Below, in pieces: positions 46,993 through 64,000 of a stretch of 64,000 bases of DNA (position 1 is its first letter; each line of letters begins with the position of its first letter). The notes beneath the pieces are model-generated. The model searched no databases, was not told the origin of the DNA, and was given only the letters and a program-made list of their open reading frames with translations. Position numbers and translations under genes: made by a program. Source of the DNA: Thioalkalivibrio sp. ALJ24 (GTDB taxonomy: Bacteria; Pseudomonadota; Gammaproteobacteria; Ectothiorhodospirales; Ectothiorhodospiraceae); the NCBI RefSeq assembly GCF_000377785.1, contig NZ_KB898730.1, positions 55,098-119,097 on the forward strand, read 5' to 3'.

Positions 46993-47000
46993 CAGATATC

Positions 47001-47625: not shown

Positions 47626-47647
47626 TGTTCGTGCCTCTTGGCTAACA

Positions 47648-47668
47648 AACGTTCTTGACAGGAACGTT
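47648..47668. promoter_or_regulatory. Palindromic operator over the -35 box of the int module
   Basis: Perfect 7-bp arms AACGTTC / GAACGTT separated by TTGACAG. The spacer contains the TTGACA -35 hexamer, so a bound repressor would block polymerase. Confidence 0.6.
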
Positions 47669-47683
47669 CGTGTTCTGTAGTAT
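47655..47683 (+). promoter_or_regulatory. Strong sigma70-like promoter of the xis-int operon
   Basis: Consensus TTGACA (47655-47660), 17-bp spacer, TAGTAT (47678-47683). Start expected near 47690, about 36 nt before the excisionase-like start codon. Confidence 0.7.
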
Positions 47684-47688
47684 TCGTT

Positions 47689-47707
47689 ACGTATGGTTAA
47701 CATACGT
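47689..47707. promoter_or_regulatory. Second palindromic operator at the transcription start
   Basis: Perfect 7-bp arms ACGTATG / CATACGT around GTTAA, centred about 40 bp from the first operator and overlapping the expected start site. Confidence 0.5.
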
Positions 47708-47725
47708 CAACAAAAGGAGACTTCT

Positions 47726-47977
47726 GTGAATCAGAACACGTATCTTACGCCAGAGCAGGCTGCAGCGCGACTGCAGTTCAATACCCGGTATTTCCGGAAC
47801 GTGATCATGAAAGAGCATCTGGTCGAAGGCGTGCACTTCGTCCGTGCCTTTGACCGCCGCAAGTACCTCATTATCTGGGAGAAGGTCGAAGAAACGCTGC
47901 TGGAGAACCAGCCCGTGACCCAGACCGAGCAGGGCCTCGGAATCCCGATGGCCCGGGGAGGGGTGTGCCATGCCTAG
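47726..47977 (+). CDS. Excisionase-like DNA-binding protein
   Basis: 83 residues. The pattern YLTPEQAAARLQFNTRYFRNVIMKEHLVEGVHFVR fits a winged-helix excisionase/MerR-like fold. The GTG at 47726 is chosen because AAAGGAG lies 7 nt upstream. It overlaps the integrase start by 8 nt, as expected for a recombination directionality factor. Confidence 0.7.
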   Translation: MNQNTYLTPEQAAARLQFNTRYFRNVIMKEHLVEGVHFVRAFDRRKYLIIWEKVEETLLENQPVTQTEQGLGIPMARGGVCHA

Positions 47978-49205
47978 TGTTCGCGTACACCACAACGGCA
48001 AGCTGTTCTTCGATTTTCGGTATCGGGGCCAGCGGTGCCGGGAGTATTCCCAACTGCAGGATACGCCGAAGAACCGGCGCGCCATGGAACGGGCGCTCAA
48101 GAAGATTGAGGCGGAAATCGAGCTGGGAGTCTTCGATTACGCCAAGACCTTCCCGAACAGCCGCAATGCGCAGCGCTTCGCGCAGCCGGATGCAGTCGTT
48201 TCGCAGGAGAGCGGTCCCGAGGCGTCCGCGGATCAGCCCACGATGCGGGAGTTCAGTGACACCTGGTTCGCGGAAAATGCTCCGCTGTGGAAGCCCTCGT
48301 ACCAGACGAAGGTGACCGACATCCTGTCGAAGCACGTGGTCCCGCAGTTCGGGGACCGAAAGGTCGGCGACATCCAGAAATCCGAAATTCTCCAGTATCG
48401 CGCACAACTCGCCAAAGTGAACCGCGATACCGGGAAGGCGCTCTCCGCGTCTCGGATCAACCAGATTCTGAACGTAACGAAGCAGATTCTGGAGGAAGCC
48501 GCCGACCGCTTTGACTTTAACACGCCGTTTCAGGGCATCAAGCCCATGCGGATCGGGCGTTCGCAGGTGGATCCGTTCTCGCTTGAGGAGGTCCAGCGGT
48601 TTCTGGATGCCGCGCCGCCGGAATGGCGCGGGTATTTCCTGGTCCGCTTCTTCACCGGCATGCGGACGTCCGAGATCGACGGGCTGAAGTGGGACTGCGT
48701 CGACTTCGACCGTCGGGAGATCCTGGTGCAGTCGGCCCGGGTGCAGGGCGAGGAGACCACGACCAAGACCGACGGTTCGACGCGGACGATCCAGATGTCC
48801 GACGTGGTGTACCGAGCGCTGATGGAGGAACGCGAGGCCATGCGTCAGCGCCCGGAGACCCACCGCAGCCGCTACGTGTTCTCCACCCGGTACGGGTATC
48901 CGATTGCGTACCGCAACGTGAACAACCGGGTCTGGTACCCGACGCTGAAGAAGGCCGGACTCAAGCGCCGCAATCCCTACCAGACGCGGCACACGGCCGC
49001 GACCCTGTGGCTGGCGGCCGGCGAGAGCCCGGAATGGATTGCCCGGCAGATGGGGCATTCCAACACCAAGATGCTGTTCACGGTGTATTCGCGTTATGTG
49101 CCCAACCTGACGCGCCAGGACGGGTCCGCCATCGACCAGCTCCTGCGTATGCGCCTGCAGGGCGGGACGGTCGACAGCAGCAGGGAGGTGGAACATGAAG
49201 GCTGA
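47970..49205 (+). CDS. int: Tyrosine recombinase/integrase with DUF3596 N-terminus
   Basis: 411 residues. An N-terminal arm-binding DUF3596-like domain (VHHNGKLFFDFRYRGQRCREYS), a core-binding domain (PTMREFSDTWFAENAPLW) and the catalytic domain: Arg in FFTGMRTSEIDGLKW, the box NPYQTRHTAATLWLAAG, and MGHSNTKMLFTVYSRYV with the nucleophilic Tyr. The PYQTRHT box is usual for phage and island integrases of this group. GGGGAGG precedes the ATG. It is not an integron IntI. Translationally coupled to the genes on both sides. Confidence 0.92.
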   Translation: MPSVRVHHNGKLFFDFRYRGQRCREYSQLQDTPKNRRAMERALKKIEAEIELGVFDYAKTFPNSRNAQRFAQPDAVVSQESGPEASADQPTMREFSDTWFAENAPLWKPSYQTKVTDILSKHVVPQFGDRKVGDIQKSEILQYRAQLAKVNRDTGKALSASRINQILNVTKQILEEAADRFDFNTPFQGIKPMRIGRSQVDPFSLEEVQRFLDAAPPEWRGYFLVRFFTGMRTSEIDGLKWDCVDFDRREILVQSARVQGEETTTKTDGSTRTIQMSDVVYRALMEEREAMRQRPETHRSRYVFSTRYGYPIAYRNVNNRVWYPTLKKAGLKRRNPYQTRHTAATLWLAAGESPEWIARQMGHSNTKMLFTVYSRYVPNLTRQDGSAIDQLLRMRLQGGTVDSSREVEHEG

Positions 49206-50163
49206 AACCGTGGAAGACCTCAAGATGTTCGTGGAGCTCGACGACATCGCCTGCCACGAACCGGTGGACCTGTCGGCACGAGTGGAGATCTTCGAAAAAG
49301 GGACGGCACCGAGCGGTGAGCCGTACCTGAGGCTGCGCCTGTATGACTCTTCCGGATGGGTCGGGGCGTTTGCCCGGTGCGGTGACTGGGCCGGCCACGG
49401 TCTGGTGGACGGCCAGCTCCGGGACCTCTCGCTGCACACGGCGGACACGCCCAAAGGGCAACGGGTGCTGGTCGCGCACCCGGATTACGGTCAACCGCCG
49501 TGCGAACGGGATGCGCTGGACCTTCTGCCGGCGCACCGCGCGCCGCATCCGGAGGACCTGGGCCGCCTGATCGAGTTGGTTGAAGGCCTGGAGACCGAAG
49601 GCTATCGAGCGTTCGTTCGGGACGTCTTTTCCGACCCCAACTTCGCCATCAGCTTCGTGACCGGCACGGCCTCGGGCCGCTGCCATCATGCGGAGCGGGG
49701 CGGTCTGCTGAATCACAGCCTGGAAGTGGCCGAAGCGGTCTCCGTGGCCACCGAGCGCATGAGCGTGGCCACCTGCATGCGGGAAGCCGGGATCCTGCTG
49801 GCGCTCTTTCACGATGTGGGGAAGTGCGCCGTCCCGGATGCGCACCGTATTCCGGAAAAGCGCCACGAGCGGCTGATCGAATATCACCTGCAGGAACCCA
49901 TGGCCGCGCTGCGGAAGCGGGACCGGGATGCGCATGACGCGCTCTGGCTCACCATCGCCGCCTACCGCAGCGGCGAGACCTATGGCGCCCCGATGGCGGC
50001 CCTGGTGCAGGGGGTCGACCAGTGCAGCGCTCAGGCGGATGTTGCGCAGCGGGCACTTCGTGCGGGCCGTAAGGGCTACTGGCATCGGTTCTGCGGAGGG
50101 CGCGCGGTATGGATGCCCCCGAGGGATCCCGAACGCCCGGCCGGCTGGCTGGGGAGTACTTAA
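49195..50163 (+). CDS. OB-fold plus HD-domain protein coupled to the integrase
   Basis: 322 residues. The N-terminal half resembles an OB-fold nucleic-acid-binding domain (GEPYLRLRLYDSSGWVGAF), the C-terminal half an HD hydrolase: CHHAERGGLLNHSLEVAEA (residues about 161-180) and ILLALFHDVGKC (metal His-Asp). This layout matches YhaM-type 3'-5' exonucleases and also TraI_2-type HD proteins of integrative elements. It overlaps int by 11 nt with GGGAGGTGG before the ATG and is followed by the operon terminator. Nuclease function is inference. Confidence 0.7.
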   Translation: MKAETVEDLKMFVELDDIACHEPVDLSARVEIFEKGTAPSGEPYLRLRLYDSSGWVGAFARCGDWAGHGLVDGQLRDLSLHTADTPKGQRVLVAHPDYGQPPCERDALDLLPAHRAPHPEDLGRLIELVEGLETEGYRAFVRDVFSDPNFAISFVTGTASGRCHHAERGGLLNHSLEVAEAVSVATERMSVATCMREAGILLALFHDVGKCAVPDAHRIPEKRHERLIEYHLQEPMAALRKRDRDAHDALWLTIAAYRSGETYGAPMAALVQGVDQCSAQADVAQRALRAGRKGYWHRFCGGRAVWMPPRDPERPAGWLGST

Positions 50164-50174
50164 GGGGATGGAGG

Positions 50175-50201
50175 AAAAGGCGGGGCGAGTCCCCGCCTTT
50201 T
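50175..50201 (+). terminator. Strong intrinsic terminator of the xis-int-HD operon
   Basis: 11-bp perfect stem AAAAGGCGGGG / CCCCGCCTTTT with a 5-nt loop, followed by CTTTT, 12 nt after the stop codon. Confidence 0.92.
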
Positions 50202-50312
50202 CTTTTGGTCAACCGAAAACTTCGGAGATGCGGCTTCGCATGAGCATCCCGGCGTAGGGCGATGCGAGGGCGATTCCTACGGCTCGCCCGGCTCTCGTGG
50301 CATGCTGGCTCC

Positions 50313-50975
50313 ATGTGCGGGCGAATGACGCGTTACAGCGCGACCAGCGAGCTGGCCATGCGCTATTTCCAGGTGCCGGTCGATGCGGGTTTCGACGCAC
50401 CGCGGTACAACGTCGCGCCGGGGACGGAGCTGGAAGGGTTCCGTGCGGGCGACGATGGACGGGCCGCCTTCCAGCCGATGTTCTGGGGCTTTCGTCCCCA
50501 ACGCGTCGAGGAGGGCCCCCGGCCCATCAACGCGCGGGCCGAGAAAGTGGCCACCAGCCCGTATTTCCGCGCGGCGTTCGCGCATCGCCGTTGCATCGTG
50601 CTGGCCGACGGCTGGTACGAGTGGCGGCGGACGGAGCAGGGCAAGCAGCCGTATTACATCACCCTGGCTGAAGACGCGCCGCAGGGCGTGCTGATGATGG
50701 CGGGGATCTGGGAGCCCACCGCCGACGGCGGCGCCTGCTGCGCCATCATTACCGAACCCGCATCCGGCCGCCTGGCGCATATCCACGACCGCAAGCCCCT
50801 GTTGCTCGATGCGTCCTGCCGCTGGGACTGGCTGGACCCGGCACTCACCGAACGGGAAGCGATCCGAACACGGACGCAGCGCCTGACCCCCGACGCCCTC
50901 CGGTATCACCCGGTGTCCACCCGGGTGAACCGGCCCGCTGAGGACGACCCGTCGCTGATCGAAGCGATTCCCTGA
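50313..50975 (+). CDS. yedK: SOS response-associated peptidase family protein (YedK/HMCES)
   Basis: 220 residues. SRAP family proteins crosslink abasic sites in single-stranded DNA through Cys2. Start MCGRMTRYS at 50313 exposes this Cys. PRYNVAPGTEL (Asn), FWGFRP, INARAEKVATSPYFRAAF, CIVLADGWYEWRR (Glu) and IHDRKPLLL (His) form the active site. A longer frame from 50262 would bury the catalytic Cys and is rejected. Such genes are frequent as cargo in mobile regions. Confidence 0.93.
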   Translation: MCGRMTRYSATSELAMRYFQVPVDAGFDAPRYNVAPGTELEGFRAGDDGRAAFQPMFWGFRPQRVEEGPRPINARAEKVATSPYFRAAFAHRRCIVLADGWYEWRRTEQGKQPYYITLAEDAPQGVLMMAGIWEPTADGGACCAIITEPASGRLAHIHDRKPLLLDASCRWDWLDPALTEREAIRTRTQRLTPDALRYHPVSTRVNRPAEDDPSLIEAIP

Positions 50976-50990
50976 TGGGCTCCAGAGCCT

Positions 50991-51194
50991 TTATTCGCGA
51001 TCCTCGTCCCGTTCCTGGTCCGCGTCCACCAGCGGATCGCCGCCCAAGTGGTCCCGCAGGGCCTCGTACTGGCGCAGCGCCGCAAGCATCTGCACAAACT
51101 CGCTTTCGTGCAGCAGGACCACGCGCGAGCCATCCCGGATGCGAACGAACTCGGGGTGCAGAACCAATTCTTTGAAGGCGATTTCGCTGGACAT
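50991..51194 (-). CDS. Small acidic protein of unknown function
   Basis: 67 residues (MSSEIAFKELVLHPEFVRIRDGSRVVLLHESEFVQML). A beta-strand start, then a Leu/Arg helix and an acidic tail. The reading frame has gene-like codon use and is convergent with yedK, whose stop is 16 nt away. An alternative start at 51218 adds eight residues. No family recognised; the shape would fit a small antitoxin-like or phage-type protein but that is guesswork. Confidence 0.5.
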   Translation of the reverse strand: MSSEIAFKELVLHPEFVRIRDGSRVVLLHESEFVQMLAALRQYEALRDHLGGDPLVDADQERDEDRE

Positions 51195-51335
51195 GGGGGC
51201 ACTCGCTTCCGGGGTCATTCGGACGGGTATGCATGTTCGGCCCGTGCGTTGCAGGCCATGTTCCCGCGGCCGGGCGACAGAAACGGACGTCCGGATGGGC
51301 CATCCTGAAGCGGAAATCCATTCGCCGGGGTTGCC

Positions 51336-51547
51336 ATGGACGTTCTCAAAGCCTTTTTTGCCTTCCTGCTCGTTGCGCTGACGGCCGCATCACCGGCTAC
51401 ATCGACGAGCAGCCGCCGGGGCCGACCTACATCCGCGGTGCGGACGGCCGGATCCGTGGCACCGTGGAGGAGGGGCCGGGCTCCGCGCCGACGCGGATTC
51501 GCGATACGGACGGGCGCATTCGGCATGAAATCGATCTGCCTCGCTAA
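51336..51547 (+). pseudogene. Small exported protein with DGRI repeats, frameshifted
   Basis: The ATG at 51336 encodes a short signal peptide (MDVLKAFFAFLLVAL), but the remaining sense lies in the -1 frame: three tandem units with DGRIxG (ADGRITGYIDE, GADGRIRGTVEE, DTDGRIRHEID) ending LPR at 51547. The two halves join only with a frameshift near 51375-51382; a T6 run at 51352-51357 is also nearby. So it is either a pseudogene, a sequencing error or programmed frameshifting. Intact homologs would show a signal peptide plus repeats. Function unknown. Confidence 0.5.
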
Positions 51548-51666
51548 TCGCTGGTCTGGTCATGCCCCCGCTGCGCAGTACTGGCGTCGCGTCTTTGCGC
51601 CGGTGATGACCGGCTGGCAGGCTCCACCGTGAGCGTGACAACCGACGGACAGGGGATGGACGGGAG

Positions 51667-52698
51667 ATGACCCCGGGCAACGGAATGCGCGCGACGCTGC
51701 AGCGGCGGATGCTGCTGCTGGGCATGGTGCCAAGGCAGCCCCGCCGGGTGAGTGCACCGGAACTGGTTGAACGCCTGCAGGCGCGGGGTCTGGATACGAC
51801 CCTGCGGACCATCGAACGGGACCTGGAATCGCTTTCGGCATTTCTACCGCTCGGACGCGACGAGCGGGACCGTCCGTATGGCTGGTACTGGCTGGCCGAC
51901 GCCCCGTTGCAGGATATGCCTGCCCTGGATCCCGAGACGGCGCTCACCCTGCAGATCCTGGATGCTCACGCAGCGCGCCTGCTGCCGCCGTCAGCCCGGG
52001 AACGGCTGGCACCGCAGGTCGCCCGTGCGCGGGAGGTGCTGGACGCCACGGGTCAGTCGTCCGGCCTGAGTCTGTGGCCCGAGCGGGTGCGCATCCTCCC
52101 CAACGGTCCGCCACTGGATCCGCCGCCGATCCCGGAAGGCGTGTTCGCGACCGTGCAACAGGGCCTGCTGGAACGCCGTTGCCTCGACATCACCTACCGC
52201 TCTCGCTCGAAGGAGCGGGTGCGAGACCACCGCATCCACCCTCTGGCGCTGGTGTTCCGCGAGCCGGTCACCTACCTCCTGGCCACCATCGAGCCGCACC
52301 AGGACGTGCTGCATCTCGCCGCACACCGGATCGAGGCCGCGGCGCTGACCGAAGTGACGGCGCGCGATCCGGACGCCGGCTTCGATCTTGACCAGCTCAT
52401 CCAGGAAGGCGCATTCGATTACCCCGAGGGCGAGACCATTCGCATCGAACTTCGGGTGAGTCCGGCGCTGGCTTACCACCTGCACGAAGCGCGCCTGTCC
52501 GACGACCAGACCATCGAGCCCGAAGGGAACGGCGAGCGCTCCCGCGTCACGGCCACCGTCCGCGACACCGCGCACCTGAAATGGTGGCTGCTGGGCCTGG
52601 GCGCGGGGGTCGAAGTGCTTGGCCCGACGAATCTGCGTGAGGCCATCGCCGAGGAATTGAAGACGGCACGGGACCATTATGGTGGCGCCGATTCCTGA
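51667..52698 (+). CDS. WYL-domain transcriptional regulator
   Basis: 343 residues. N-terminal winged helix (RRVSAPELVERLQARGLDTTLRTIERDLESL), then a WYL domain (LDITYRSRSKERVRDHRIHPLALVFREPVTYLLATIEPH) and a C-terminal WCX-like segment (IRIELRVSPALAYHLHEA). WYL regulators often control defence operons such as BREX, CBASS and RM. This one lies 1 kb upstream of the type I RM operon, so control of that operon is a fair guess. The ATG at 51667 is preceded by GGACGGGAG. Confidence 0.88.
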   Translation: MTPGNGMRATLQRRMLLLGMVPRQPRRVSAPELVERLQARGLDTTLRTIERDLESLSAFLPLGRDERDRPYGWYWLADAPLQDMPALDPETALTLQILDAHAARLLPPSARERLAPQVARAREVLDATGQSSGLSLWPERVRILPNGPPLDPPPIPEGVFATVQQGLLERRCLDITYRSRSKERVRDHRIHPLALVFREPVTYLLATIEPHQDVLHLAAHRIEAAALTEVTARDPDAGFDLDQLIQEGAFDYPEGETIRIELRVSPALAYHLHEARLSDDQTIEPEGNGERSRVTATVRDTAHLKWWLLGLGAGVEVLGPTNLREAIAEELKTARDHYGGADS

Positions 52699-52730
52699 CC
52701 CCCCGTTCGTCCACCCAGAAGAGTCGGAGA

Positions 52731-52759
52731 TTCCGGGCGACAATGGCTGTCGCCCGGAA
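52731..52759 (+). terminator. Strong hairpin after the WYL gene
   Basis: Perfect 12-bp stem TTCCGGGCGACA / TGTCGCCCGGAA with a 5-nt loop, 32 nt after the stop. There is no T-run. Confidence 0.6.
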
Positions 52760-52804
52760 GGTTCAGCATGACCTTGCACCCGGATCACTGAAAAAGGGAT
52801 TTAC

Positions 52805-53230
52805 ATGAAACCTCAAACAAAAAGGCATCTGCTGACCGTCGGCCCACTGGCGCCGATGGTGGCGCTGGCGCTGGGCAGTTACGACGAAGAGGGAACCGCA
52901 CGCGAAGTCGAGGATATGGAGGTCGAGCACCGGGTGTCGGCGCAGGAGCTGTTTGCGGAATATGACGCCAACGAAGTCAGGGCCGACGAGGCTTATGCCG
53001 ATACCGTAGTGGCCGTCACCGGGATCGTCGAAAACATCGGGCGCGATATTGCGGACACGCCCTACATCACGTTCGAGACGGACAACCCGATCGTGGGCAT
53101 CCAGTGCATGCTGGCGGAGTCGGATGCGGGTCTGGCGGCCAGCGTGGATTCCGGTGATCGAATAACCCTCAAGGGGCGGGTCAGTGGAAAACTCGGCAAT
53201 GTGGTCATCCGCGGCTGTCAGGCGGAGTGA
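52805..53230 (+). CDS. OB-fold (tRNA_anti-like) exported protein
   Basis: 141 residues. N-terminal hydrophobic segment after a basic start (MKPQTKRHLLTVG), then an OB-fold like that of tRNA_anti-like proteins: VSAQELFAEYDANEVRADEAYADTVVAVTGIVENIGRD and GDRITLKGRVSGKLGNVVIRGC. Homologs I know of are usually lipoproteins; here the expected lipobox Cys reads Ser-Tyr (LALGSYDEE), so the protein may be a plain exported or anchored form. Role unknown. The VanZ-like gene follows 16 nt later. Confidence 0.7.
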   Translation: MKPQTKRHLLTVGPLAPMVALALGSYDEEGTAREVEDMEVEHRVSAQELFAEYDANEVRADEAYADTVVAVTGIVENIGRDIADTPYITFETDNPIVGIQCMLAESDAGLAASVDSGDRITLKGRVSGKLGNVVIRGCQAE

Positions 53231-53246
53231 CGGGCCGGGGTACACG

Positions 53247-53675
53247 GTGCCCGTCCTGCTGGGGCTGGTGCCGCTGCTTCCGGGCGCCTTGATCTATATT
53301 GGCTTCCGGCCGGAGACGCTGATCTTCGTGTCCTGGCTGGAATCGTCCGGGCTGGGCGAGCTGTACCGGTTCCTCCGGGCGTTGCTCGGTCCGGCGGCGG
53401 GTCTCATGCCGGACTGGGCCATCTACAACCTGCCGAACGGGCTGTGGGCGTTTGCCGTGATCGCGGTGATTGCCGTCGTCTGGCCGCTGCGCAGCCTGGC
53501 GGGTGGCTTCTACCTTTCGATCGGCATTCTGCTGACCTGGGGCCTCGAAGTGCTGCAGCGGTTCGGCCTGATGCCCGGAACGTTCGATCCCGGCGATCTG
53601 GCAATGATGGCGTTGCTCGGGGGCGCCGGTCTCCTCACGGGCGTTGCGCTGAGGACGCGCCGGGCCCCGAACTAG
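53247..53675 (+). CDS. VanZ-like small membrane protein
   Basis: 142 residues with about four transmembrane segments ([72 protein letters not shown]). [22 protein letters not shown] matches the VanZ-type E-x-x-Q and F-D-x-x-D pattern. Start GTG at 53247 is tentative. Function unknown. Confidence 0.65.
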
Positions 53676-53772
53676 CGCCCGCAAAGGTCGCGAGCGGTCT
53701 GGATTTGCTGGACAATGCCTAAAATCCCATGATCTTCCTCGGGAAGTGACATCGCGAGCAGGAGAGCAGCAG

Positions 53773-55752
53773 TTGAACACGGAGAACCATTCGGAGACGG
53801 CGGCGTGGATCTGGTCGGTGGCGGATCTGCTGCGCGGGGACTTCAAGCAGTCGCAGTACGGGCGGGTGATCCTGCCGTTCACGCTGCTGCGGCGGCTGGA
53901 GTGCGTGCTGGAGCCAACCAAGGACACGGTGCTTGCAGCCGCCAGGGAGCACGAGCAGAAGCCGGATGCCGTGCGGGAGAAGCTGCTGCTGCGCGCATCG
54001 GAGCAGCCGTTTTTCAATACCTCGCCCCTGTCGCTGGTCAGCCTCTCGGATACGCAGCCGGCCGAGGACCTGATGAGCTACATCCAGTCCTTCAGTAAGG
54101 ACGCCCGCGAGATCTTCGATCACTTCCACTTCGAGGACTATGTCGAGCAGCTTTCCGCTCACAACCTCCTGTACCAGGTGGTGCAGCGTTTCGCCGCCAT
54201 CGACCTGCGCCCGGCGCGCATCTCGAACTTCGGCATGGGGCTCGTGTTCGAGGAGCTGATCCGCAAGTTCGCGGAGAGCTCCAACGAGACCGCCGGGGAG
54301 CACTTCACCCCGCGTGACGTGGTCCACCTGACCACCTCGCTGGTGCTCACGGGGCAGGACCACAAGCTCCAGCCGCACGGCATCGTCACCGTGTACGACC
54401 CGACCTGCGGTACCGGCGGCTTCCTGTCCGAGAGCGAGGAGTACATCCAGCAGATCAGCCAGGATGTGAGCGTGTCCTTGCACGGGCAGGAGCTGAACCC
54501 CGAGTCCTACGCCATCTGCAAGGCGGACATGCTGATCAAGGGCCAGGATGTCGAGAACATCAAGCTCGGCAACACCCTGTCCGACGACCAGCACGCGGAC
54601 GAGCACTTCGACTACATGCTCGCCAACCCGCCGTTCGGCGTGGAGTGGAAGAAGGTCCAGAAGCAGGTGACCGACGAGCACAAGCACAAGGGCTTCAACG
54701 GGCGTTTCGGCCCCGGCCTGCCGCGCGTGTCCGACGGCTCGCTGCTGTTCCTGCTGCACCTGGTCAGCAAGATGCGCGACCCGCGGGAGGGTGGCTCGCG
54801 CATCGGCATCATCCTCAACGGCTCGCCGCTGTTCACCGGCGGGGCCGGCAGTGGCGAGTCCGAGATCCGCCGCTACCTGCTGCAGCACGACATGGTGGAG
54901 GCCATCATCGGCCTGCCCACCGACATGTTCTACAACACCGGCATCGCCACCTACATCTGGGTGCTGAACAACCGCAAGCCGGCCGAACGCCGCGGCCATG
55001 TGCAGCTCATCGACGCCACCGAGCGCTACGCCAAGATGCGCAAGTCGCTCGGCTCCAAGCGCCAGTACATCGACGACGCCAACATCGACGCCATCGTGCG
55101 CAGCTACGGCGCCTTCCAAGAGAGCGCCAAGAGCAAGATCTTCCCGAACGAGGCCTTCGGCTACCGCCGTATCACGGTCGAACGCCCGCTGCGCCTGAAC
55201 TTCCAGGCCAGCCCCGAGCGCATCGAACGCATGCTGGCCGAAAAGCCGATCCAGAAACTGGACGAGACCACCCGCCTGGGTGTGCAGGCCGCCTGCGAGC
55301 GGCTGGACGCCGAGCGCGTATACACCAACCGCGAGACCTTCCTGAATGACCTGAAGGCCCAGTTGAAGGCGCTGGACGTGAAGCTGCCCGCCGCCGCGCT
55401 GAAGGCCGTATGGAACGGCCTGAGCGAACGCGACCCGGAAGCCGACATCTGCACCGACAAGAAGGGCAACCCGGAACCGGACAGCGACCTTCGCGACACC
55501 GAGAACGTCCCGCTGGGCGAGGACGTTTTCGAGTACTTCGAGCGCGAGGTGAAGCCGCACGTCCCCGACGCCTGGATCGACGAGGACAAGCGCGACGAAC
55601 AGGACGGCGAGATCGGCATCGTCGGCTTCGAGATCCCCTTCAACCGCCACTTCTACGTGTTCCAGCCCCCGCGCCCGCTGGAAGAGATCGACGCCGACCT
55701 GAAGGCTGTCACCACCCGCATCAAGCAGATGATCGAGGAGCTGTCGGCGTGA
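53773..55752 (+). CDS. hsdM: Type I restriction-modification methyltransferase subunit HsdM
   Basis: 659 residues. N6-adenine methyltransferase: SAM motif [13 protein letters not shown] (about residue 210) and catalytic NPPFG (about 285), preceded by the helical HsdM_N domain ([32 protein letters not shown]). Start at the TTG 53773 has AGGAG 8 nt upstream; a GTG at 53746 is the alternative. The stop overlaps hsdS (GTGA). The C-terminal region contains an acidic segment. With HsdS it methylates a bipartite target. Confidence 0.93.
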
Positions 55753-57101
55753 GCTTCCCCAAGTATCCCGAGTACAAGGACTCCGGCGTCGAATGGCTGG
55801 GCGAGGTGCCGGCGCATTGGAATAAGACAGCTCTGAAGTTCCTCGGCGATTATTTCAATGGGTACCCATTTAAGCCCGAAGATCGTGGTGAAGAAGGGCT
55901 GCCTATTATTCGGATTGCTCAGCTGACCGGCGAAAGCGAACCCGCTTTGTTTTTCGGACATATCGATGAAAGAAACAAAGTCAATGATGGGGATCTTTTG
56001 TTCTCGTGGTCAGCGACCATCGATGCATTTATTTGGTACGGGGGCGACGCATGGCTGAATCAGCACATATTCAAAGTAACCCCCTCGCGGGAGGCGGTGA
56101 AAAAATTCCTCTATTATGTAATCAAGCACGTCGCACCTAGGTTGGCCGACTTCGATGCTCATGGCAGCACCATGAAGCACATTAAGAGAGAAAGTTTGGC
56201 GCAACGGGTATATGTGCCATGTCTTCACGAACAGGTTGTTATCGCCGCCTTCCTCGACCACGAGACCGGGAAGATCGATGCGCTGATCGAGGAGCAGCGG
56301 CGGCTGATCGAGCTGCTGAAGGAGAAGCGGCAGGCGGTGATCTCCCACGCCGTCACCAAGGGCCTCGACCCCAACGTGCCCATGAAGGACTCCGGCGTCG
56401 AATGGCTGGGCGAGGTGCCGGCGCATTGGGAGGTCGTGAAGTTTTCCAGAGTTGTCCAGATTTCGGAAGGTCAAGTAGACCCCAAACAAGAACCGTATCG
56501 GGAAATGGTTCTCGTGGCACCGAACCATGTTGAATCCAATACTGGTCGTTTGATCGCGCAAGAAAGCGCAGAAAGCCAGGGCGCCGAGAGCGGAAAGTAC
56601 CTATGTTGCCCAGGAGACGTTGTTTACAGCAAGATCCGGCCGGCTTTGCGCAAGGCTTGCCTGGCAGACAAGCCGTGCCTTTGTAGTGCAGATATGTACC
56701 CGTTGAGAGCCCGACACAGCCTGGACAACTGTTTTTTGTTGTGGACGATCTTATCGGAACCATTTTCTCGATTCGCCGTCATGGAATCGCAACGGGTGGC
56801 GATGCCAAAAATCAACCGAGAATCTCTGAATGAGCTTCACCTTCTTCTGCCCCCACCGGAGGAACAAAGGGAGATCGTGGCACAGATAGACAAGGAGATA
56901 CAGACAATAGACAGGCTGCTCCAGGAAGGGGAATCGGCGGTGCGAATCCTAGACGAACGACGTTCAGCGCTGATCTCTGCCGCTGTCACCGGCAAGATCG
57001 ACGTGCGCGACTGGGGGGGCGGGGCCGAGACGGACGAGCCGGAGCTGGCGATGGTCGCTGAGGAGTCGGCCGGATATTCGGCACTAGGCGGTGCCCAATG
57101 A
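55749..57101 (+). CDS. hsdS: Type I restriction-modification specificity subunit HsdS
   Basis: 450 residues. Two target-recognition domains, each opening with the same [16 protein letters not shown] or [16 protein letters not shown] motif (residues about 8-24 and 211-227) and followed by a coiled-coil spacer ([31 protein letters not shown] and [31 protein letters not shown]). The TRD stretches are visibly richer in A+T than the conserved parts, a mark of horizontal swapping. The GTG start is inside the hsdM stop. The DNA target cannot be read from sequence. Confidence 0.92.
55776..55820 (+). repeat. 45-bp direct repeat, first copy, start of HsdS TRD1
   Basis: Identical over 45 bp with 56385-56429; encodes [15 protein letters not shown]. 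The copies lie 609 bp (203 codons) apart in the same frame. Confidence 0.95.
56385..56429 (+). repeat. 45-bp direct repeat, second copy, start of HsdS TRD2
   Basis: Perfect copy of 55776-55820. Recombination between copies would delete or exchange TRD1 without shifting the frame. Confidence 0.95.
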
Positions 57102-58048
57102 CCCAGGGCCGCAGCATCCGCCTGTTCCTGGTGGACGGCACGCCGCACGGGCTGCTGACGGCGGAGATCATGAACTGGACCGGGCATGTGCTTACCGGGC
57201 CACGGGGCAAGTTGAGCGAGCTGGTGCAACGCCCGGAGTGCGGGCGCACTGGCGTGTACTTTCTGGTCGGGCCGGACGCGGAGAACAGTGCCCGCCCGCA
57301 GGTGTACATCGGGGAGTCGGATGATGTCGGCAAGCGGCTCAAGCAGCACAACCGCACCGAGGAGCAGGGCGGCAAGGACTTCTGGGAGAAGGTCTGCCTG
57401 ATCACCAGCAAGGACCAGAACCTGACCAAGGCCCATGTGAAATACCTGGAGAGCCTGCTGATCCAACAGGCCCAGAAGGTGGGCCGGTGTACCCTGAACA
57501 ACAACACCCGCCACGACTACATTGGCCTGCCCGAGGCCGATCAGGCCGACATGGCCTTCTTCCTGGAGCAGATCCGCACCGTCCTGCCCGTACTCGGCTT
57601 CGAGTTCCTGCGCGACGCCAGCCGGCCGCCTTCCCGCGATACCGTGGAGGGTCTGGCTGGTGACACCTCCGAGGTGCGGGAATCGCCCCGGTTCCGCATG
57701 ACCCTGCCCAAGCACGGCATTACTGCGTATGGCCAGGAGACAGAGGGGGAGTTCTTTGTGCTGGAGGGCTCTCAGGCGCGATCCGCGTGGGTAGGGCCAG
57801 CCCACGGCTATCAGCGCCTGCACCAGCAACTGTGTGAAGAAGGGGTCGTTGCGGAAGGCGGGGATGGCCTGCTCCGGTTCACGCGAGACTATGCGTTTTC
57901 CAGCCCCAGTGCGGCGGCTGCTATGGTGAGCGGAAGGACAGCCAACGGCCGTGCGGAATGGAAGCGCGAAGACACCGGCCAGTCCTACGGGGAGTGGCAG
58001 GACGAGTTGGTCAGCGAGGCGGCCGGGGCCGACGCCGACGAGTCTTAA
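57098..58048 (+). CDS. GIY-YIG nuclease-fold protein with DUF4357, inside the hsd operon
   Basis: 316 residues. GIY-YIG-like core: GVYFLVG, then QVYIGESDDVGKRLKQHN and a downstream acidic helix (VKYLESLLIQQAQ) for the catalytic Glu. The C-terminal third matches DUF4357 (AYGQETEGEFFVLEGSQAR). It overlaps hsdS by 4 nt and precedes hsdR by 14 nt, so it is part of the RM operon. Whether it cuts DNA, trims the hsdR product or acts as a separate defence nuclease is unknown. Confidence 0.85.
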   Translation: MTQGRSIRLFLVDGTPHGLLTAEIMNWTGHVLTGPRGKLSELVQRPECGRTGVYFLVGPDAENSARPQVYIGESDDVGKRLKQHNRTEEQGGKDFWEKVCLITSKDQNLTKAHVKYLESLLIQQAQKVGRCTLNNNTRHDYIGLPEADQADMAFFLEQIRTVLPVLGFEFLRDASRPPSRDTVEGLAGDTSEVRESPRFRMTLPKHGITAYGQETEGEFFVLEGSQARSAWVGPAHGYQRLHQQLCEEGVVAEGGDGLLRFTRDYAFSSPSAAAAMVSGRTANGRAEWKREDTGQSYGEWQDELVSEAAGADADES

Positions 58049-58062
58049 TTTCGGGGAGCATT

Positions 58063-61000
58063 ATGGCGGACAGCAGGGAAGCCCAGTTTCAGCAGGACAT
58101 CATCGACGCGATGACCGCCGATGGCTGGCTGACCGGTCCGGCCAGCGGCTATGACGCCGCCCATGCGCTGTACACCGAGGATCTGGTGGCCTATCTGCAG
58201 GAAGCTTGGCCGGAACGGTGGGAGAAGTTCGCCGCCAAGAACCCGCAGGACCCGCAGAAGGCCCTGGTGCGCGCGGTCACCCGCGAGCTGGAGCGCGGCG
58301 GCACGCTGGACGTGCTGCGCCACGGGGTGAAGACCCCGGGGGTGAAGCTGGAGCTCTGCAGCTTCAGGCCCGACCACGAGATGAACCCCGAGTCTCTGGC
58401 GCGTTACCGCGCCAACCGCCTCCGGGTGGTGCCGGAGGTCTCGTACTCGCCGCACGCGCGCAGCGGCGAGTACAACCCGCGGCTGGATCTGGTGCTGTTC
58501 GTCAACGGCATCCCCACCGCCACGCTGGAGCTGAAGAGCGAGTTCAAGCAGTCGGTGGAGAACGCCAAGCGCCAATACCGGCGCGACCGCCCGCTGAAGG
58601 ATCCGGTCACCCGCAAGCCCGAGCCGCTACTGACCTTCAAGCGCGGGGCGCTGGTGCATTTCGCGGTCAGCCAGGACCAGGTGGCGATGACCACGCGCCT
58701 GAACGGCAAGGACACTGTGTTCCTGCCCTTCAATCGGGGCACCGAAGACGGCGGCGCCGGCAACCCCGCACCCCCGGACCCGAACAGCTACGCCACCGGC
58801 TACCTGTGGCAGCGCGTGTTCCAGCCTGATGCCTGGCTCCGGATCATCGGCCGCTTCCTGCACCTGGAGCAGAAGACCGAGGAGGACTTCCACGGCAAGC
58901 GCCGCAAGAAGGAAGCGTTGATCTTCCCGCGCTTCCACCAGTGGGACGTGGTGAACCGCCTGATCGAAGCCACGCGCGAGGAAGGCGCCGGGCAGCGCTA
59001 CCTGATCCAGCACAGTGCCGGCTCCGGCAAATCCAACTCCATCGCCTGGATCGCGCACCAGCTCGCCGCGCTGTACGACGAGGCGGGCGGCAAGCTGTTC
59101 AACTCCGTGGTGGTGGTCACCGACCGCACGGTGCTGGACAGCCAGCTCCAGGACACCATCTACCAGTTCGACCATGCGCACGGTGTGGTGCGGCCGATCA
59201 CCCGCGATGTCGGCAGCCAGAGCAAATCGGAGCAACTGGCCGAGGCGCTGGCCGAGCAGACCCGCATCATCATCGTGACCATCCAGACCTTCCCGGCGCT
59301 GTTCGACGCGCTGGACAAGCGCCCGGACCTGGCCGCCGGGCGCTACGCGGTGATCGCCGACGAGGCGCATTCCTCGCAGACCGGGTCCTCCGCCACCAAG
59401 CTGAAGGCGATTCTCGGAACGGACAAGCCGGAGGACGAGGAGATCAGCGCCGAGGAACTGCTGGACGCGGCCGTGGCCGCGCGCAAGCCGGCCGAGCGCA
59501 TCAGCTACTACGCCTTCACCGCCACCCCCAAGGCGAAGACCCTGGAGCTGTTCGGCCGCCCGCCGGATCCGGAGCTGCCACCCTCGACGGATAACAAGCC
59601 CGAGCCCTTCCACCTGTACTCCATGCGCCAGGCCATCGAGGAAGGCTTCATCCTCGACGTGCTGAAGAACTACACCACGTACTCCACCGCCTGGAAGCTG
59701 GCGCACCCGCACGCCGACGACCAGGAGGTGGAGTCGCGCAAGGCCTCGACGAAGATCGCCCGCTGGGTGCGCCTGCACCCCTACAACATCACGCAGAAGG
59801 TCGAGGTGATCGTCGAGCACTTCCGTGCCAACGTGCGCCACCTGCTGGATGGCCAGGCGAAGGCCATGGTGGTGACTGGCAGCCGCCAGGAAGCCGTGCG
59901 CTACGCGTTGGCCATGCGCGAGTACATTCAGGGGAAGGGCTACCCCGACGTACACGCGCTGGTCGCCTTCTCCGGCTCCGTTCCGCCGGACGAGGTGATC
60001 CCCGAGGAGGTAACCGAGACCAGCTCGCTGTTGAACCCGGGGCTGAAGGGCCGCGACCTGGCCGAGGCCTTCGACACCGACGAATACAACGTGATGATCG
60101 TTGCCAACAAGTTCCAGACCGGGTTCGACCAGCCCCGGCTCTGCGCCATGTACGTGGACAAGAAGCTGCAGGGCGTGGAGTGCGTGCAGACCCTCTCGCG
60201 GCTGAACCGCACCTTCCCGGGCAAGGAGGACACCTTCGTCCTCGACTTCTTCAACGACGCCGAAGACATCCTTGAGGCCTTCCGCCCGTACTACAACAAG
60301 GCCGAACTGGCCGACGTCTCCGACCCGCAGATCGTCTACGACCTGCAGAAAAGCCTGGACGCCACCGGCATCTACCACTGGGACGAGGTCGAGAACTTCG
60401 CCCGCGCGTTCTTTGATCCGAAGGCCGGCGCCAGCCAGCTCAGCTACTACTGCCAGCCCGCGAAGGAGCGCTACCACGCCCGCTACAAGGCGGTGCTGGA
60501 GCAGATCCAGACCTGGAAGGCCGCCTACGACGAGGCCGAACGCAATGGCGACAAGCCGGGTCTGCACCGCGCCGAGCAGGAGCTGAAGGACGCCCACACC
60601 ACCCGCGACGAGCTCGACCTGTTCCGCAAGAACCTGCAGAGCTTCGTGCGCAGCTACGAGTTCCTGTCACAGATCGTCGACTTCGAGGACCACGAGCTGG
60701 AACAGCTCAACGTCTACGCCCGCGCCCTGCATCCGCTGCTGCGCATCGAGAACCTCGAAGAAGAGCAAATCGACGTCGACGAACTGGAGCTGACCCACTA
60801 CCGCCTGAACAAGCGCGCCGAACAGCGCCTGAGCCTGGAAGAGGAGGGCGCCGATTACGAAGGCCTCAAGCCCGTCTCCGACGTCGGGTCGGGCAAACCG
60901 CACGACCCGGAGAAGAAACGCCTCTCCGAGATCATCGACCAGCTCAACGAACTCTTTGGCGCCGAGGTGAGCGACGAAGACAAGCTCCAGTTCGCCAACG

Positions 61001-61257
61001 GCATCGCCGACCGCATCCGCCGCGACGATGCCGTGATGGCCCAGGTCGAGAACCACAGCCCCGACCAAGTGATGCACGGGCTGTTCCCCAAACGCGTCAC
61101 CGACACCGTCCTCGACGCCATGACCGAACACGAGAAATTGTCCATGCAGGTCCTAGACGACCCGGAGCGGCAGCGGGACTTTGCCCTCGTGATCCTGCGC
61201 CTGCTGACCGGCGCGCCAAGGGAACAACGAACTGCGACCACCTGGCCCGGACAATGA
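58063..61257 (+). CDS. hsdR: Type I restriction enzyme motor/endonuclease HsdR
   Basis: 1,064 residues. N-terminal PD-(D/E)xK nuclease core (LDLVLFVNGIPTATLELKSEF, residues about 140-160), Walker A QHSAGSGKSNS (about 318), DEAH box VIADEAHSS (about 430), further SF2 motifs (YYAFTATPKAK, NKFQTGFDQP, QTLSRLNR) and a C-terminal helical domain that docks on HsdM. It translocates and cuts unmodified DNA. The ATG at 58063 has GGGGAG upstream. Confidence 0.95.
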   Translation: MADSREAQFQQDIIDAMTADGWLTGPASGYDAAHALYTEDLVAYLQEAWPERWEKFAAKNPQDPQKALVRAVTRELERGGTLDVLRHGVKTPGVKLELCSFRPDHEMNPESLARYRANRLRVVPEVSYSPHARSGEYNPRLDLVLFVNGIPTATLELKSEFKQSVENAKRQYRRDRPLKDPVTRKPEPLLTFKRGALVHFAVSQDQVAMTTRLNGKDTVFLPFNRGTEDGGAGNPAPPDPNSYATGYLWQRVFQPDAWLRIIGRFLHLEQKTEEDFHGKRRKKEALIFPRFHQWDVVNRLIEATREEGAGQRYLIQHSAGSGKSNSIAWIAHQLAALYDEAGGKLFNSVVVVTDRTVLDSQLQDTIYQFDHAHGVVRPITRDVGSQSKSEQLAEALAEQTRIIIVTIQTFPALFDALDKRPDLAAGRYAVIADEAHSSQTGSSATKLKAILGTDKPEDEEISAEELLDAAVAARKPAERISYYAFTATPKAKTLELFGRPPDPELPPSTDNKPEPFHLYSMRQAIEEGFILDVLKNYTTYSTAWKLAHPHADDQEVESRKASTKIARWVRLHPYNITQKVEVIVEHFRANVRHLLDGQAKAMVVTGSRQEAVRYALAMREYIQGKGYPDVHALVAFSGSVPPDEVIPEEVTETSSLLNPGLKGRDLAEAFDTDEYNVMIVANKFQTGFDQPRLCAMYVDKKLQGVECVQTLSRLNRTFPGKEDTFVLDFFNDAEDILEAFRPYYNKAELADVSDPQIVYDLQKSLDATGIYHWDEVENFARAFFDPKAGASQLSYYCQPAKERYHARYKAVLEQIQTWKAAYDEAERNGDKPGLHRAEQELKDAHTTRDELDLFRKNLQSFVRSYEFLSQIVDFEDHELEQLNVYARALHPLLRIENLEEEQIDVDELELTHYRLNKRAEQRLSLEEEGADYEGLKPVSDVGSGKPHDPEKKRLSEIIDQLNELFGAEVSDEDKLQFANGIADRIRRDDAVMAQVENHSPDQVMHGLFPKRVTDTVLDAMTEHEKLSMQVLDDPERQRDFALVILRLLTGAPREQRTATTWPGQ

Positions 61258-61412
61258 ATAAGTGCTTCAGTACATCGTGGCCCCCGTTAACAGGAAAGCG
61301 AAAGCCACAATGCTGCCATGCCGTCATTCGTTTTCGCACGGAGTCTCGCATGTGCGCATAGCCAACCGAATCGGATGGAACCTAGATCGCGGAATATCAC
61401 GGCTATATCTGT
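61258..61412. other. Non-coding junction between hsdR and the cassette array
   Basis: 155 bp, richer in A+T than the hsd genes. I looked for an attC or attI ending at 61413 and found no convincing folded site; no gene is visible. Confidence 0.5.
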
Positions 61413-61419
61413 GTTAGCC
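61413..61419 (+). other. Left boundary (GTTAGCC) of the first cassette
   Basis: GTTAGCC is complementary at 6 of 7 positions to the CGCTAAC box that ends this cassette (62115-62121), as required if both once formed one attC in a circular cassette. Cassette A would then run from 61414 to 62168. Confidence 0.5.
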
Positions 61420-61448
61420 AGATTCTGTCTAATACACTTTTAGGGGGT

Positions 61449-62120
61449 ATGCCCTTGGAAAGTGAGCTGCAAATTGTAGTGACATCGGGATGGACGGGAA
61501 TTATCACTGCCTTTGCTACTACAACAGCGGTAATAGTCGCCCTTGGATTACATTTCCATAGGCTTTACCGGGATCGCCAGGACGCAACAGCGCAAGCTGA
61601 TAAAAACGCTACCGTTGCACTCCAAGCAGCTTATTCAGAGATTAGAGCGTTAGATACCTACTTCGGTCTCGTGAAGCTGAATTTACACGATCTCAGCGAT
61701 TCTGCGGCTGTAGATATCCTGCTCACAGTGGCGGATCCCGAGAATCAGCTTGATCCAGATCTCCCAGTGGTCGTTGTGGAAAGTCGAATGGAAGTGGTTT
61801 CCCGGCTGCCGACGAAGCTTTCCGGCGTGTATTCCGGTGCAATGGCGAGGTACCGAATTGTTAGAGAACATTCGGAACGATTAATTAAGCACTACAATGG
61901 AAGCAAAGAGGAGCTAATTGCTGATCAAAGCAGAGGGAGTAAGTCCGCGAATTTCCTTCGTGTGGCCGCATTTGTAAGGAAGGCTGCAACCGAAGGAGAA
62001 GAATACACTGGGCTGTTGATTGCTGAAGCGGAAAAACGTGATCCGGACTTAAAGCCAGTTAAAGTGTCTGGTAAAGAGGTCATGGATGAAGCAAGCCGGC
62101 AAGAAAGTGATAACCGCTAA
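61449..62120 (+). CDS. Unknown membrane-anchored protein (cassette A)
   Basis: 223 residues. One N-terminal transmembrane segment (IITAFATTTAVIVALGLHFHRLY), then a soluble, mostly helical region. The coding sequence is much richer in A+T than the RM genes beside it, a sign of transfer. The stop codon lies within the attC box at 62115. A TTG at 61455, 7 nt after GGGGG, is an alternative start. No family recognised. Cassette-borne proteins with one TM helix and a soluble tail are common and mostly uncharacterised. Confidence 0.7.
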   Translation: MPLESELQIVVTSGWTGIITAFATTTAVIVALGLHFHRLYRDRQDATAQADKNATVALQAAYSEIRALDTYFGLVKLNLHDLSDSAAVDILLTVADPENQLDPDLPVVVVESRMEVVSRLPTKLSGVYSGAMARYRIVREHSERLIKHYNGSKEELIADQSRGSKSANFLRVAAFVRKAATEGEEYTGLLIAEAEKRDPDLKPVKVSGKEVMDEASRQESDNR

Positions 62121-62174
62121 CCATCGGTTGCAGGTGACACTCGTACCTCGCGTACCTGAACCGGAGTGTTAGGT
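62115..62174 (+). other. attC site 1 (integron cassette recombination site)
   Basis: 60-bp imperfect palindrome. Core boxes CGCTAAC (62115-62121) and GTTAGGT (62168-62174; fits GTTRRRY). Inner stem CGGTT-[G]-CAGGT pairs with ACCTG-AACCG, leaving one extrahelical G on the 5' side, the classic attC feature. Unpaired spacers separate inner and outer stems. The stop of the preceding gene is inside the left box. Recombination point between 62168 and 62169. Confidence 0.85.
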
Positions 62175-62193
62175 AGAAAAAGCGTCGGAAGCC

Positions 62194-62667
62194 ATGGGTG
62201 AATATAACCTAGAATTTGCGGAAGCTATGGCTGAGGCCAGCAATCTAATTCTTCATAGCGAATCCTTGCACGAGGAAGGACAGCGAGCCGCTTTGTATAC
62301 AGCTTTGGTTGCGTGCGAGATAGCGCTTAAATATGCACTATCTGAGGCAGGGGTAACGGTACCCAAGACGCACGATCTTTCAAAGCTCATGGGTCTCGTG
62401 TCAGATTGCTCCATTGAGGACGTGGATTCAAACGGGGCTATCAAGCGCGTCCCGGCGAGTCGCATACGGGGTGTCTCCGCCAGCGACAATTATAGTGATG
62501 CCACGCTCGGTAATTTGCTTGAGGCAGAGGAGTTTGGCGCATCTAAATTTCCCAACGAAATTCGCTATGGTCGTACGCTAGAGCACTTCCCAGCATCGGT
62601 CATGCAGCAAGCCAGTCTTAAGCTTATTGCCTGGGTTAAATGCTATGCTCCAAGCATTCAAGCCTAA
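62194..62667 (+). CDS. HEPN-like protein (cassette B)
   Basis: 157 residues, helical. The stretch AALYTALVACEIALKYALSEAGVTVPKTHDLSKLM has the HEPN pattern of a helix with conserved acid/lysine followed by G-x(4-6)-HDL. HEPN proteins are frequently RNases or RNase-like partners in toxin-antitoxin and defence systems. No partner gene is adjacent. A+T-rich, with the stop inside attC 2. Assignment is by pattern only. Confidence 0.6.
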   Translation: MGEYNLEFAEAMAEASNLILHSESLHEEGQRAALYTALVACEIALKYALSEAGVTVPKTHDLSKLMGLVSDCSIEDVDSNGAIKRVPASRIRGVSASDNYSDATLGNLLEAEEFGASKFPNEIRYGRTLEHFPASVMQQASLKLIAWVKCYAPSIQA

Positions 62668-62763
62668 CAAAGCGCATCAATAAGGGGCTGACGGGCGCCG
62701 GACGCCCTTTTCGTTGAGTCTGCGCATCCACTACAAGGGCGCCGTTGTGCGCTGGCGTTATCA
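62662..62763 (+). other. attC site 2 (integron cassette recombination site)
   Basis: About 100 bp. Left core GCCTAAC (62662-62668, perfect RYYYAAC) pairs with GTTA at 62757-62760. The inner stem AGCGCA-[T]-CAA pairs with TTG-TGCGCT, leaving one extrahelical T. A long variable terminal part with GGCGCC repeats forms the loop end. The left box also pairs with GTTAGGT at the start of this same cassette (62168-62174), as expected for one excised circle. Confidence 0.82.
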
Positions 62764-62779
62764 ATAAGACCGACGGATC

Positions 62780-63399
62780 ATGATGACTTGGTGGGGGAGA
62801 ACCGGCTGGCTTATCGGGTGCGCGCTACTCGCATCGATATTGACTGCTGTGGTTGCTGTCGTGTGGCTCGCGCAAGCCTCGATCGGAGTGGACCCGCCGC
62901 ACTTGTATACTCTAGTCGCAGCTTCTTTCGGTCTCATCATAGCGGTCTGGAGCGGATCGATCTCGTTTAGGGTTTCAAAACAAGCTGAAAGAGATCGATA
63001 CCCGTTTCCGCTGCCTGAAATTGACCTTCGGAGCAGGCCAGTTCTATACCTGTTTCGCGTAAAAACTACGGAATCAGCGCAGCCAAGAATATTTTTATTA
63101 AATGGGATAACGAAGACTACCCAAAGCATAACGATGGCGCAGCGCCGTTTTCTCGAGACGATGGGGGGAGCTATATGCCCGCCCTTGGGGCTGGCCAATC
63201 AATTGCGGGGTATCTGGGTTCGGTTGTGGATAAGGAGCGGGCCTTGGGGTATCAATGGAGTGGTGTCGTGAGATTCGAGACTACATTAGGTAAATCTTGT
63301 GCGGAGCCCTTCGTGATCGGTGACTCTCAATATAAGAAGCCGCTTTGTACGATACAGAGTGGACAGGAATTGTGGCCGCACTGTCTAAATTCATCCTGA
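62780..63399 (+). pseudogene. Unknown two-TM protein broken by a frameshift (cassette C)
   Basis: Two membrane segments (TGWLIGCALLASILTAVVAVVWLA and LYTLVAASFGLIIAVW), then RVSKQAERDRYPFPLPEIDLRS. The frame runs on to 63271 but loses sense after LYLFRVK. At the A5 run 63061-63065, adding one A restores LFRVKNYGISAAKNIFIKWDN, followed by a sensible tail to a TGA at 63399. So this looks like a one-base deletion in a homopolymer: a real mutation or a sequencing error. The N-Y-G-x3-A-x-N-I-x-I-x-W pattern is common in small membrane-linked proteins of unknown function. Confidence 0.6.
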
Positions 63400-63420
63400 T
63401 TATCAATGAAGCTCATCCAG

Positions 63421-63435
63421 GCTCACTGAGTGAGC
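63421..63435. repeat. 15-bp perfect palindrome at the presumed left end of the IS
   Basis: GCTCACT-G-AGTGAGC, 22 nt after the broken cassette gene and 49 nt before the transposase ATG. The left terminal inverted repeat of the IS probably lies here; the right end is outside the window. Confidence 0.45.
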
Positions 63436-63483
63436 CACCCCCGGGCGTACGCTGGAGGTCCACATCCAGCGGAGAGCGGCATC

Positions 63484-64000
63484 ATGGCGCAGAACCGGAT
63501 TCAGTTTCAGCAGGGCCTGTCGTTGCCGGCGTTCCTGGCGCGTTACGGCACGGAGGCTCAGTGCGAATCGGCGCTCGAGGAGGCCCGCTGGCCGGACGGC
63601 TTTCGCTGTCCACGCTGCGGGGGCGGGGCCCACTGCGTACTGCACAGGCCGCGCAAGTGGTTTCAGTGCCAGGTCTGCCGGCACCAGGCCTCGCTGACCG
63701 CCGGCACCGTGATGCAGGGGACCAAGCTGCCGCTGACCACGTGGTTTCTGGCCATCTATCTGATCGGTCAGGACAAGACCGGGCTTTCGGCCCTGGAGCT
63801 GAAGCGTCAGCCGGGAGTCAGCTACCCCACTGCCTGGGCACTGCACCACAAGCTGATGAAGGCGATGGCCGAGCGGGAGGCACACTATACGCTCGACGGC
63901 ATCGTGCAGGTGGATGATGCCTATCTGGGCGGCGAACGGACCGGGGGCAAAGTGGGACGCGGGTCGGAGAACAAGGTGGCGTTCGTGGCGGCGGTCTCGC
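63484..64000 (+). mobile_element. IS1595-family transposase, cut by the window edge
   Basis: The open frame from the ATG at 63484 gives at least 172 residues and has no stop before the edge. Zinc ribbon C42-x2-C45 and C62-x2-C65 (FRCPRCGGG, FQCQVCRHQ), then LTAGTVMQGTKLPLTTWFLAIYLI, and the first catalytic Asp region VQVDDAYLGGERTGG of the ISXO2-type DDE/N domain. It lies where the third attC would be expected, so the element has probably inserted in the cassette array. Confidence 0.9.

Follow-up and report, generated by a model that had tools for sequence, protein, structure and literature searches.

A perfect 45-bp in-frame repeat in a Thioalkalivibrio hsdS gene encodes the conserved joint of a two-TRD specificity subunit and probably reflects slow evolutionary shuffling

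The DNA analyzed here (hereinafter the window, to which all positions refer unless another locus is named) is a 64,000-nucleotide stretch of contig NZ_KB898730.1 (assembly GCF_000377785.1, positions 55,098 to 119,097 of the forward strand) from Thioalkalivibrio sp. ALJ24, a gammaproteobacterium of the Ectothiorhodospiraceae with a draft genome of 2.81 Mb in 20 contigs. The plus strand of the window carries a type I restriction-modification operon with the gene order hsdM-hsdS-GIY-YIG/DUF4357-hsdR, so that an HsdS with two Methylase_S domains is encoded close to both hsdM and hsdR. The hsdM gene (53746-55752) encodes the modification subunit, with HsdM_N and N6_Mtase domains (Pfam PF12161, 3.3e-26, and PF02384, 8e-61, respectively); over the best segment its product is 95% identical to that of a Thioalkalivibrio halophilus gene, and the first six matches listed are all titled Thioalkalivibrio. 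The specificity gene hsdS (55749-57101) begins with a GTG codon that overlaps the hsdM stop, and its translation of 450 amino acids matches PF01420 in two stretches. It is followed by the gene for a GIY-YIG and DUF4357 protein (57098-58048; PF01541, 1.3e-4, and PF14267, 1.4e-18) and by hsdR, which encodes the restriction subunit from an ATG start (58063-61257; PF04313, PF18766, and PF22679, with 58060-61257 as the profile query). A relative of the GIY-YIG gene adjoins hsdS in 17 of the 27 loci of the related group described below and also in some distant Acetobacter-type loci.

The surroundings of the operon include, within 47001-49205, a tRNA-Val gene on the minus strand followed by a tyrosine integrase gene (47970-49205) with an Arm-DNA-bind_2 domain; among the direct repeats of at least 26 bp reported in 46900-64000, none offers a candidate att pair for this integrase. 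Past hsdR lies a stretch of low GC content (0.47-0.57; 61400-63500) with a HEPN-domain gene at 62194-62667, and after it comes, from 63430, a transposase-like open frame, so labeled from a reading of the sequence.

The hsdS gene contains a direct repeat, the two copies of which (55776-55820 and 56385-56429, both on the plus strand) are identical in 45 of 45 bases and are separated by 609 bp from start to start, that is, by 203 codons. The bases that flank the two copies differ on either side, so the match is exactly 45 bp long, and the hsdS frame is open throughout, with both copies in frame. With up to three mismatches allowed, the 45-mer has two matches in the window compared with a mean of 0.00 in 100 shuffles, and no other family of direct repeats measuring 26 bp or more (seed 16) was reported in 46900-64000. 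The description in the first-pass annotation of perfect 45-bp in-frame repeats that open both TRDs is thus confirmed to the base.

In the protein, the repeat encodes a 15-residue motif, denoted x, which opens both halves of many related HsdS proteins. The first copy, x1, covers residues 10-24 and forms a strand pair ahead of TRD1 (about residues 25-158; 55821-56222), and the second copy, x2, covers residues 213-227 and forms a strand pair ahead of TRD2 (about residues 228-369; 56430-56855), the TRD borders being taken from a structure model and from fixed offsets relative to x and hence approximate at the level of single residues. In this model (pLDDT 85.7; 28 sequences), a long helix comes after each TRD, so that the protein consists of two TRD-helix units: the first helix, D1 (residues 159-204; 56223-56360), lies in the central conserved spacer, y1, and the second, D2 (residues 370-413; 56856-56987), corresponds to the C-terminal conserved region, y2; all these segments are on the plus strand. 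The best fold matches in the PDB are HsdS chains, namely 1yf2 (E 2.4e-21), 2y7c, 3okg, and 5ybb, with whole-chain TM scores (by model length) of 0.43-0.61, so that the agreement in overall domain arrangement is not close. Among 76 HsdS frames encoded beside a related hsdM (from 73 sources, the window included), motif x is present in two copies in 45, in one copy in 18, and in no copy in 13 at a lenient motif score, the two-copy count being 42 at a stricter score and the frames that lack copies including both those cut by contig ends and distant HsdS devoid of the motif. Motif x is where each half of a type I specificity subunit normally begins, and the window gene belongs to the already known class of repeat-jointed, domain-shuffling hsdS.

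With respect to the perfect identity of the two copies, the window gene shows the highest within-gene identity between x1 and x2 among 72 distinct genes (from 74 entries with two duplicates), with 44 of 45 in the runner-up, as might be produced by a recent intragenic conversion or duplication that copied one x over the other in this strain. Against such an event, the window 45-mer is the DNA consensus of x1 and also of x2 in 10 congener-like genes (the window gene among them, with HsdM 88-95% identical to that of the window), and it remains so when the window gene is excluded; moreover, the x1 copies of three congeners (L147, L148, and L149) are identical to it. Because the 45-mer already is the consensus at both positions, the identity represents a shared family state and need not be private to the strain. 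Within each of these 10 genes, x1 and x2 differ at 0 to 6 positions, and the mean number of differences is 3.20 within a gene vs. 3.16 between genes, the observed value being equalled or undercut in 13070 of 20000 permutations. Considered as another candidate process, concerted evolution of the two copies within genes is accordingly absent in the 10 congeners. For the 17 remaining members of the group, the closeness of the two copies within a gene is reached by 1070 of 20000 permutations and is not clear. In wider samples of 22 and 23 genes it is reached in only 2 and 0 of 20000 permutations, respectively, values that are confounded by lineage composition and peptide differences. Since the x1 and x2 of one congener gene are no more alike than those of different congener genes, recent intragenic conversion is not supported; the window gene is simply the one without private changes, and the conversion scenario, which is not needed to explain it, is largely refuted and appears extremely improbable.

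In sharp distinction from the conserved joint, the TRDs of related genes are almost wholly different. With a threshold of 40% identity over 70% for a shared TRD, the 45 pairs of the 10 congener-like genes include none that share both TRDs, three that share TRD1 only, two that share TRD2 only, and 40 that share neither. The corresponding numbers for the 351 pairs of the 27-gene group are 1, 18, 9, and 323, with one pair sharing a TRD across positions; both gene sets were picked for two recognizable copies of x, so that others, such as the congener L036, were left out. In eight of nine pairs, themselves picked for a shared TRD, the block of DNA homology ends no more than 12 bases from the end of an x copy, for instance at position 751 in L013/L021 (x2 ends at 750), at 1187 in L015/L028 (1185), and at 942 in L017/L038 (930), although a block end at x is partly expected wherever a conserved x lies beside diverged TRDs, regardless of the actual site of crossover. 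In the exceptional pair, L028/L088, the main homology block is a cross-position one that starts inside x.

The TRD1 type of the window is found in three Pseudomonas plasmid records, and in one of these plasmids the hsdS gene encodes a TRD1 with 71% amino acid identity to that of the window and an x2 that is 100% identical in protein and 91% in DNA, followed by an unrelated second half with 25% amino acid identity over 28 aligned residues; this short plasmid gene has an annotated IS5-family transposase gene as its neighbor. For TRD2 of the window, another genus contains a homologue in a second half, with 56% identity. Furthermore, 24 TRD pairs that match across positions (identity of 45% or more over 70% or more of the query) were detected among the 72 distinct genes. 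The TRD1 type of the window has distant cross-position relatives in the second halves of five genes (32-38% identity), and its TRD2 has weak relatives in first halves, including that of the congener L148. One of the 24 pairs lies within a single gene, the hsdS of Thiocapsa sp. KS1 (L088, 9290-10654), in which nearly the same TRD occupies both positions (87% or 86% amino acid identity in two comparisons; 78% DNA identity over 597 bp), and for which a near-symmetric target is predicted. Motif x is not the only usable joint, because the congener hsdS L036 (9517-11028) consists of two halves without x2, the second half being joined inside y1. The suggestion of the first-pass annotation that TRDs are swapped at the repeats therefore holds as evolutionary history, given that the TRDs of relatives differ wholesale, homology blocks end at x, and TRDs cross positions, with exchange inferred between species, each represented by one genome; as an active process in this bacterium it is not supported.

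The GC content at third codon positions (GC3) is about 0.53 in TRD1 and 0.55 in TRD2, compared with 0.93 for hsdM and 0.98 for the central spacer (47 codons before x2). The TRDs had also been described as A+T-rich and imported in appearance; the former is borne out by these values, but as an indication of import the composition is weak, given that low-GC TRDs are general: GC3 is below that of the spacer for TRD1 in 50 of 50 genes and for TRD2 in 48 of 50. The low GC3 is compatible with TRDs that circulate in a shared mobile pool or with relaxed selection on codons and is no proof, by itself, of recent import.

A different possibility is that the repeat serves as an active local switch, whereby recombination between x1 and x2, or exchange with silent hsdS pieces, alters methylation specificity within a clonal population. 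The window gene does contain perfect in-frame homology of 45 bp with a 609-bp spacing, and the geometry allows an in-frame deletion of 609 bp that would, by simple arithmetic, shorten the protein from 450 to 247 amino acids. In a blastn comparison of the two halves of the gene (E 1e-5), only the 45 bp are repeated, and y is not repeated as DNA; hence, a single intragenic crossover could delete or duplicate but could not swap the positions of the TRDs. As for the products of such deletion, none of the 11 congener-like hsdS genes is a one-TRD form, ten having two copies of x and the remaining one being L036 with its two halves. Thus, the proposed deletion of TRD1 in frame is geometrically possible but there is no sign of its occurrence. 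A distant gene, L078, was considered as a natural one-TRD relative and rejected: it has the organization x-TRD-y2 in a 226-amino-acid frame, with no start codon of its own seen before x.

The search for silent hsdS fragments sharing the 45-bp repeat, which had been put forward as a check on this possibility, yielded none in the draft genome: across the 20 contigs, there is neither a third copy of the repeat nor a second HsdS of the window family, as judged from searches in which the repeat, PF01420, and the entire HsdS served as queries. The only other PF01420 piece there, a candidate silent cassette near an end of contig C5 (43 of 168 PF01420 positions matched), does not contain the repeat and belongs to a second, different type I system (L011, near the start of C5), in which, by our reading of the sequence, the start of hsdS is interrupted by transposase-like frames. 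No recombinase is encoded in the operon, the nearest one identified being the integrase whose gene ends about 6.5 kb upstream. Among 47 family genomes, 18 of which match both the spacer and x, a single place is listed that has x and lacks the spacer, a decayed remnant in genome G276 (L144, G276:C29:4500-9500) that comprises an hsdM tail and an hsdS head with x, with the intact hsdS located on another contig. The existence in a relative of an x-bearing piece apart from the intact gene speaks for a switch; nevertheless, set against the lack of a third repeat copy and of a second family HsdS in the draft genome of the host, of a DNA-level repeat of y, of one-TRD forms among the congener-like genes, and of a recombinase in the operon, it leaves a programmed switch very unlikely, and active switching by this bacterium is not supported by the sequence data considered here.

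Another explanation is that x is a structural element repeated through an ancient internal duplication of HsdS and maintained by pure protein constraint, with its DNA identity caused by codon bias and no part in recombination. The peptide x is indeed conserved far beyond the genus. Moreover, over the 27 genes, the fractions of identical codons in x1, x2, and y1 (0.616, 0.639, and 0.676, respectively) match those predicted from hsdM (0.651, 0.643, and 0.673), so that neither x nor y shows a general excess of synonymous conservation relative to the hsdM genes of the same pairs. However, TRDs have been exchanged across the borders of x, and one DNA consensus is present at both positions despite the low probability (P about 4.6e-4, with the codon usage of the neighboring hsdM, GIY-YIG, and hsdR genes) that the same 15 codons would be chosen in two independently encoded copies of the peptide. 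Furthermore, the histidine codon of x runs against codon usage. Taken with these observations, a pure protein constraint seems to us unlikely.

The histidine codon (codon 14 of x; 55815-55817 and 56424-56426) is CAT, against a strong local preference for CAC. In the 27 genes, the x histidine is encoded by CAT in 49 of 51 cases, compared with 82 of 415 histidines in hsdM of the same genes, and none of 316 conserved hsdM columns deviates from codon usage as far as the x histidine does, the six conserved histidine columns of hsdM being mostly CAC. The alanine codon that precedes this histidine is GCG in 91% (x1) and 85% (x2) of the cases vs. about 28% expected, a level that is equalled by 6 (x1) and 12 (x2) of the 316 hsdM columns; several serine columns of hsdM approach the value of the x histidine, and only the histidine codon stands alone. 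In a regular-expression count on loci L013-L092, the x histidine is CAT in 34 cases and CAC in 7, whereas other histidines before tryptophan are CAT in 18 of 76, which rules out CAT before tryptophan as a general habit in these loci; the phylum sample, with only four such cases, is too small in this respect. Outside the 27-gene group, x has CAT in 21 cases and CAC in 6. When 349 genomes of the phylum are scanned for a degenerate x pattern, the version that ends in CATTGG matches 39 places in 27 genomes (including the two copies in the window) and the version that ends in CACTGG matches 4 places in 4 genomes, a contrast that is partly background since 51% of the other histidine codons in those loci are CAT. 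All these CAT and CAC counts are inflated by relatedness and are reported as a lead. There is no link between the CAT codon and the GIY-YIG neighbor, CAT being used in 32 of 33 cases with the neighbor and in 17 of 18 where none was found.

Conceivably, the 3′ end of x, that is, the CAT codon and, less singularly, GCG, next to the invariant TGG at the TRD border, is kept as DNA across genera, against codon usage, as a preferred crossover or recognition core for TRD exchange; we regard this idea as quite improbable. If it were true, a short DNA signal for TRD exchange would be hidden in a coding joint, and in any case the codon oddity hints, in a way open to testing, that DNA at a recombination border is under selection. 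As far as titles and the beginnings of abstracts go, none of the papers listed announces a synonymous-site oddity in hsdS, which is not to claim that none has been published; no paper in the library searched was found for the x peptide or similar strings, and the literature on Thioalkalivibrio and restriction-modification includes, by the same measure, none on this joint.

Taken as a whole, these observations argue that the 45-bp repeats are most probably the DNA of the conserved joint that opens each half of a two-TRD HsdS and that has participated in slow evolutionary shuffling, as opposed to a programmed switch. Under the shuffling scenario, incoming hsdS DNA would recombine through the homology supplied by x and the neighboring spacer, in-frame replacement would affect a single TRD each time, and half of the bipartite target would change, with HsdM, the helices, and HsdR remaining compatible. 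Recombination between x1 and x2 within the chromosome would instead yield the one-TRD protein, for which there is no sign of occurrence or advantage. A type I system of the Thioalkalivibrio-like lineage could in this manner alter its DNA target with its other components unchanged, and TRD content has been almost wholly turned over between species with closely similar HsdM, with the fixed joint as the border.

Several parallels with known systems help to place the window gene. The type I S genes of Helicobacter pylori that undergo domain movement (DOMO) have the organization x-(TRD1)-y-x-(TRD2)-y in the description of Furuta et al. (2011; PMC3077401). As in that description, an x repeat opens each TRD half (37 bp in H. 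pylori Group 2 and 45 bp here), TRDs of relatives occur in either position, and deletion to a single TRD is formally possible; unlike the H. pylori genes as presented there, the window gene is a single locus without a DNA-level repeat of y, movement is seen between species and not between strains, and there is no one-TRD allele among the congeners. The predicted product of deletion between x1 and x2 would resemble the one-TRD HsdS homodimers of EcoR124I, EcoDXXI, and NgoAV, which a 2013 review (PMC3874165) speaks of as reported in type IC only, and in this respect, too, the congeners differ in having no such form. The phase-variable type I systems with duplicated hsdS genes and inverted repeats, as outlined by Atack et al. 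(2020; PMC7394358), likewise tie repeats to changes in the TRD content of HsdS. The system in the window differs from the inverting systems of that outline in that its single hsdS carries direct repeats, no partner gene was detected, and the operon encodes no recombinase.
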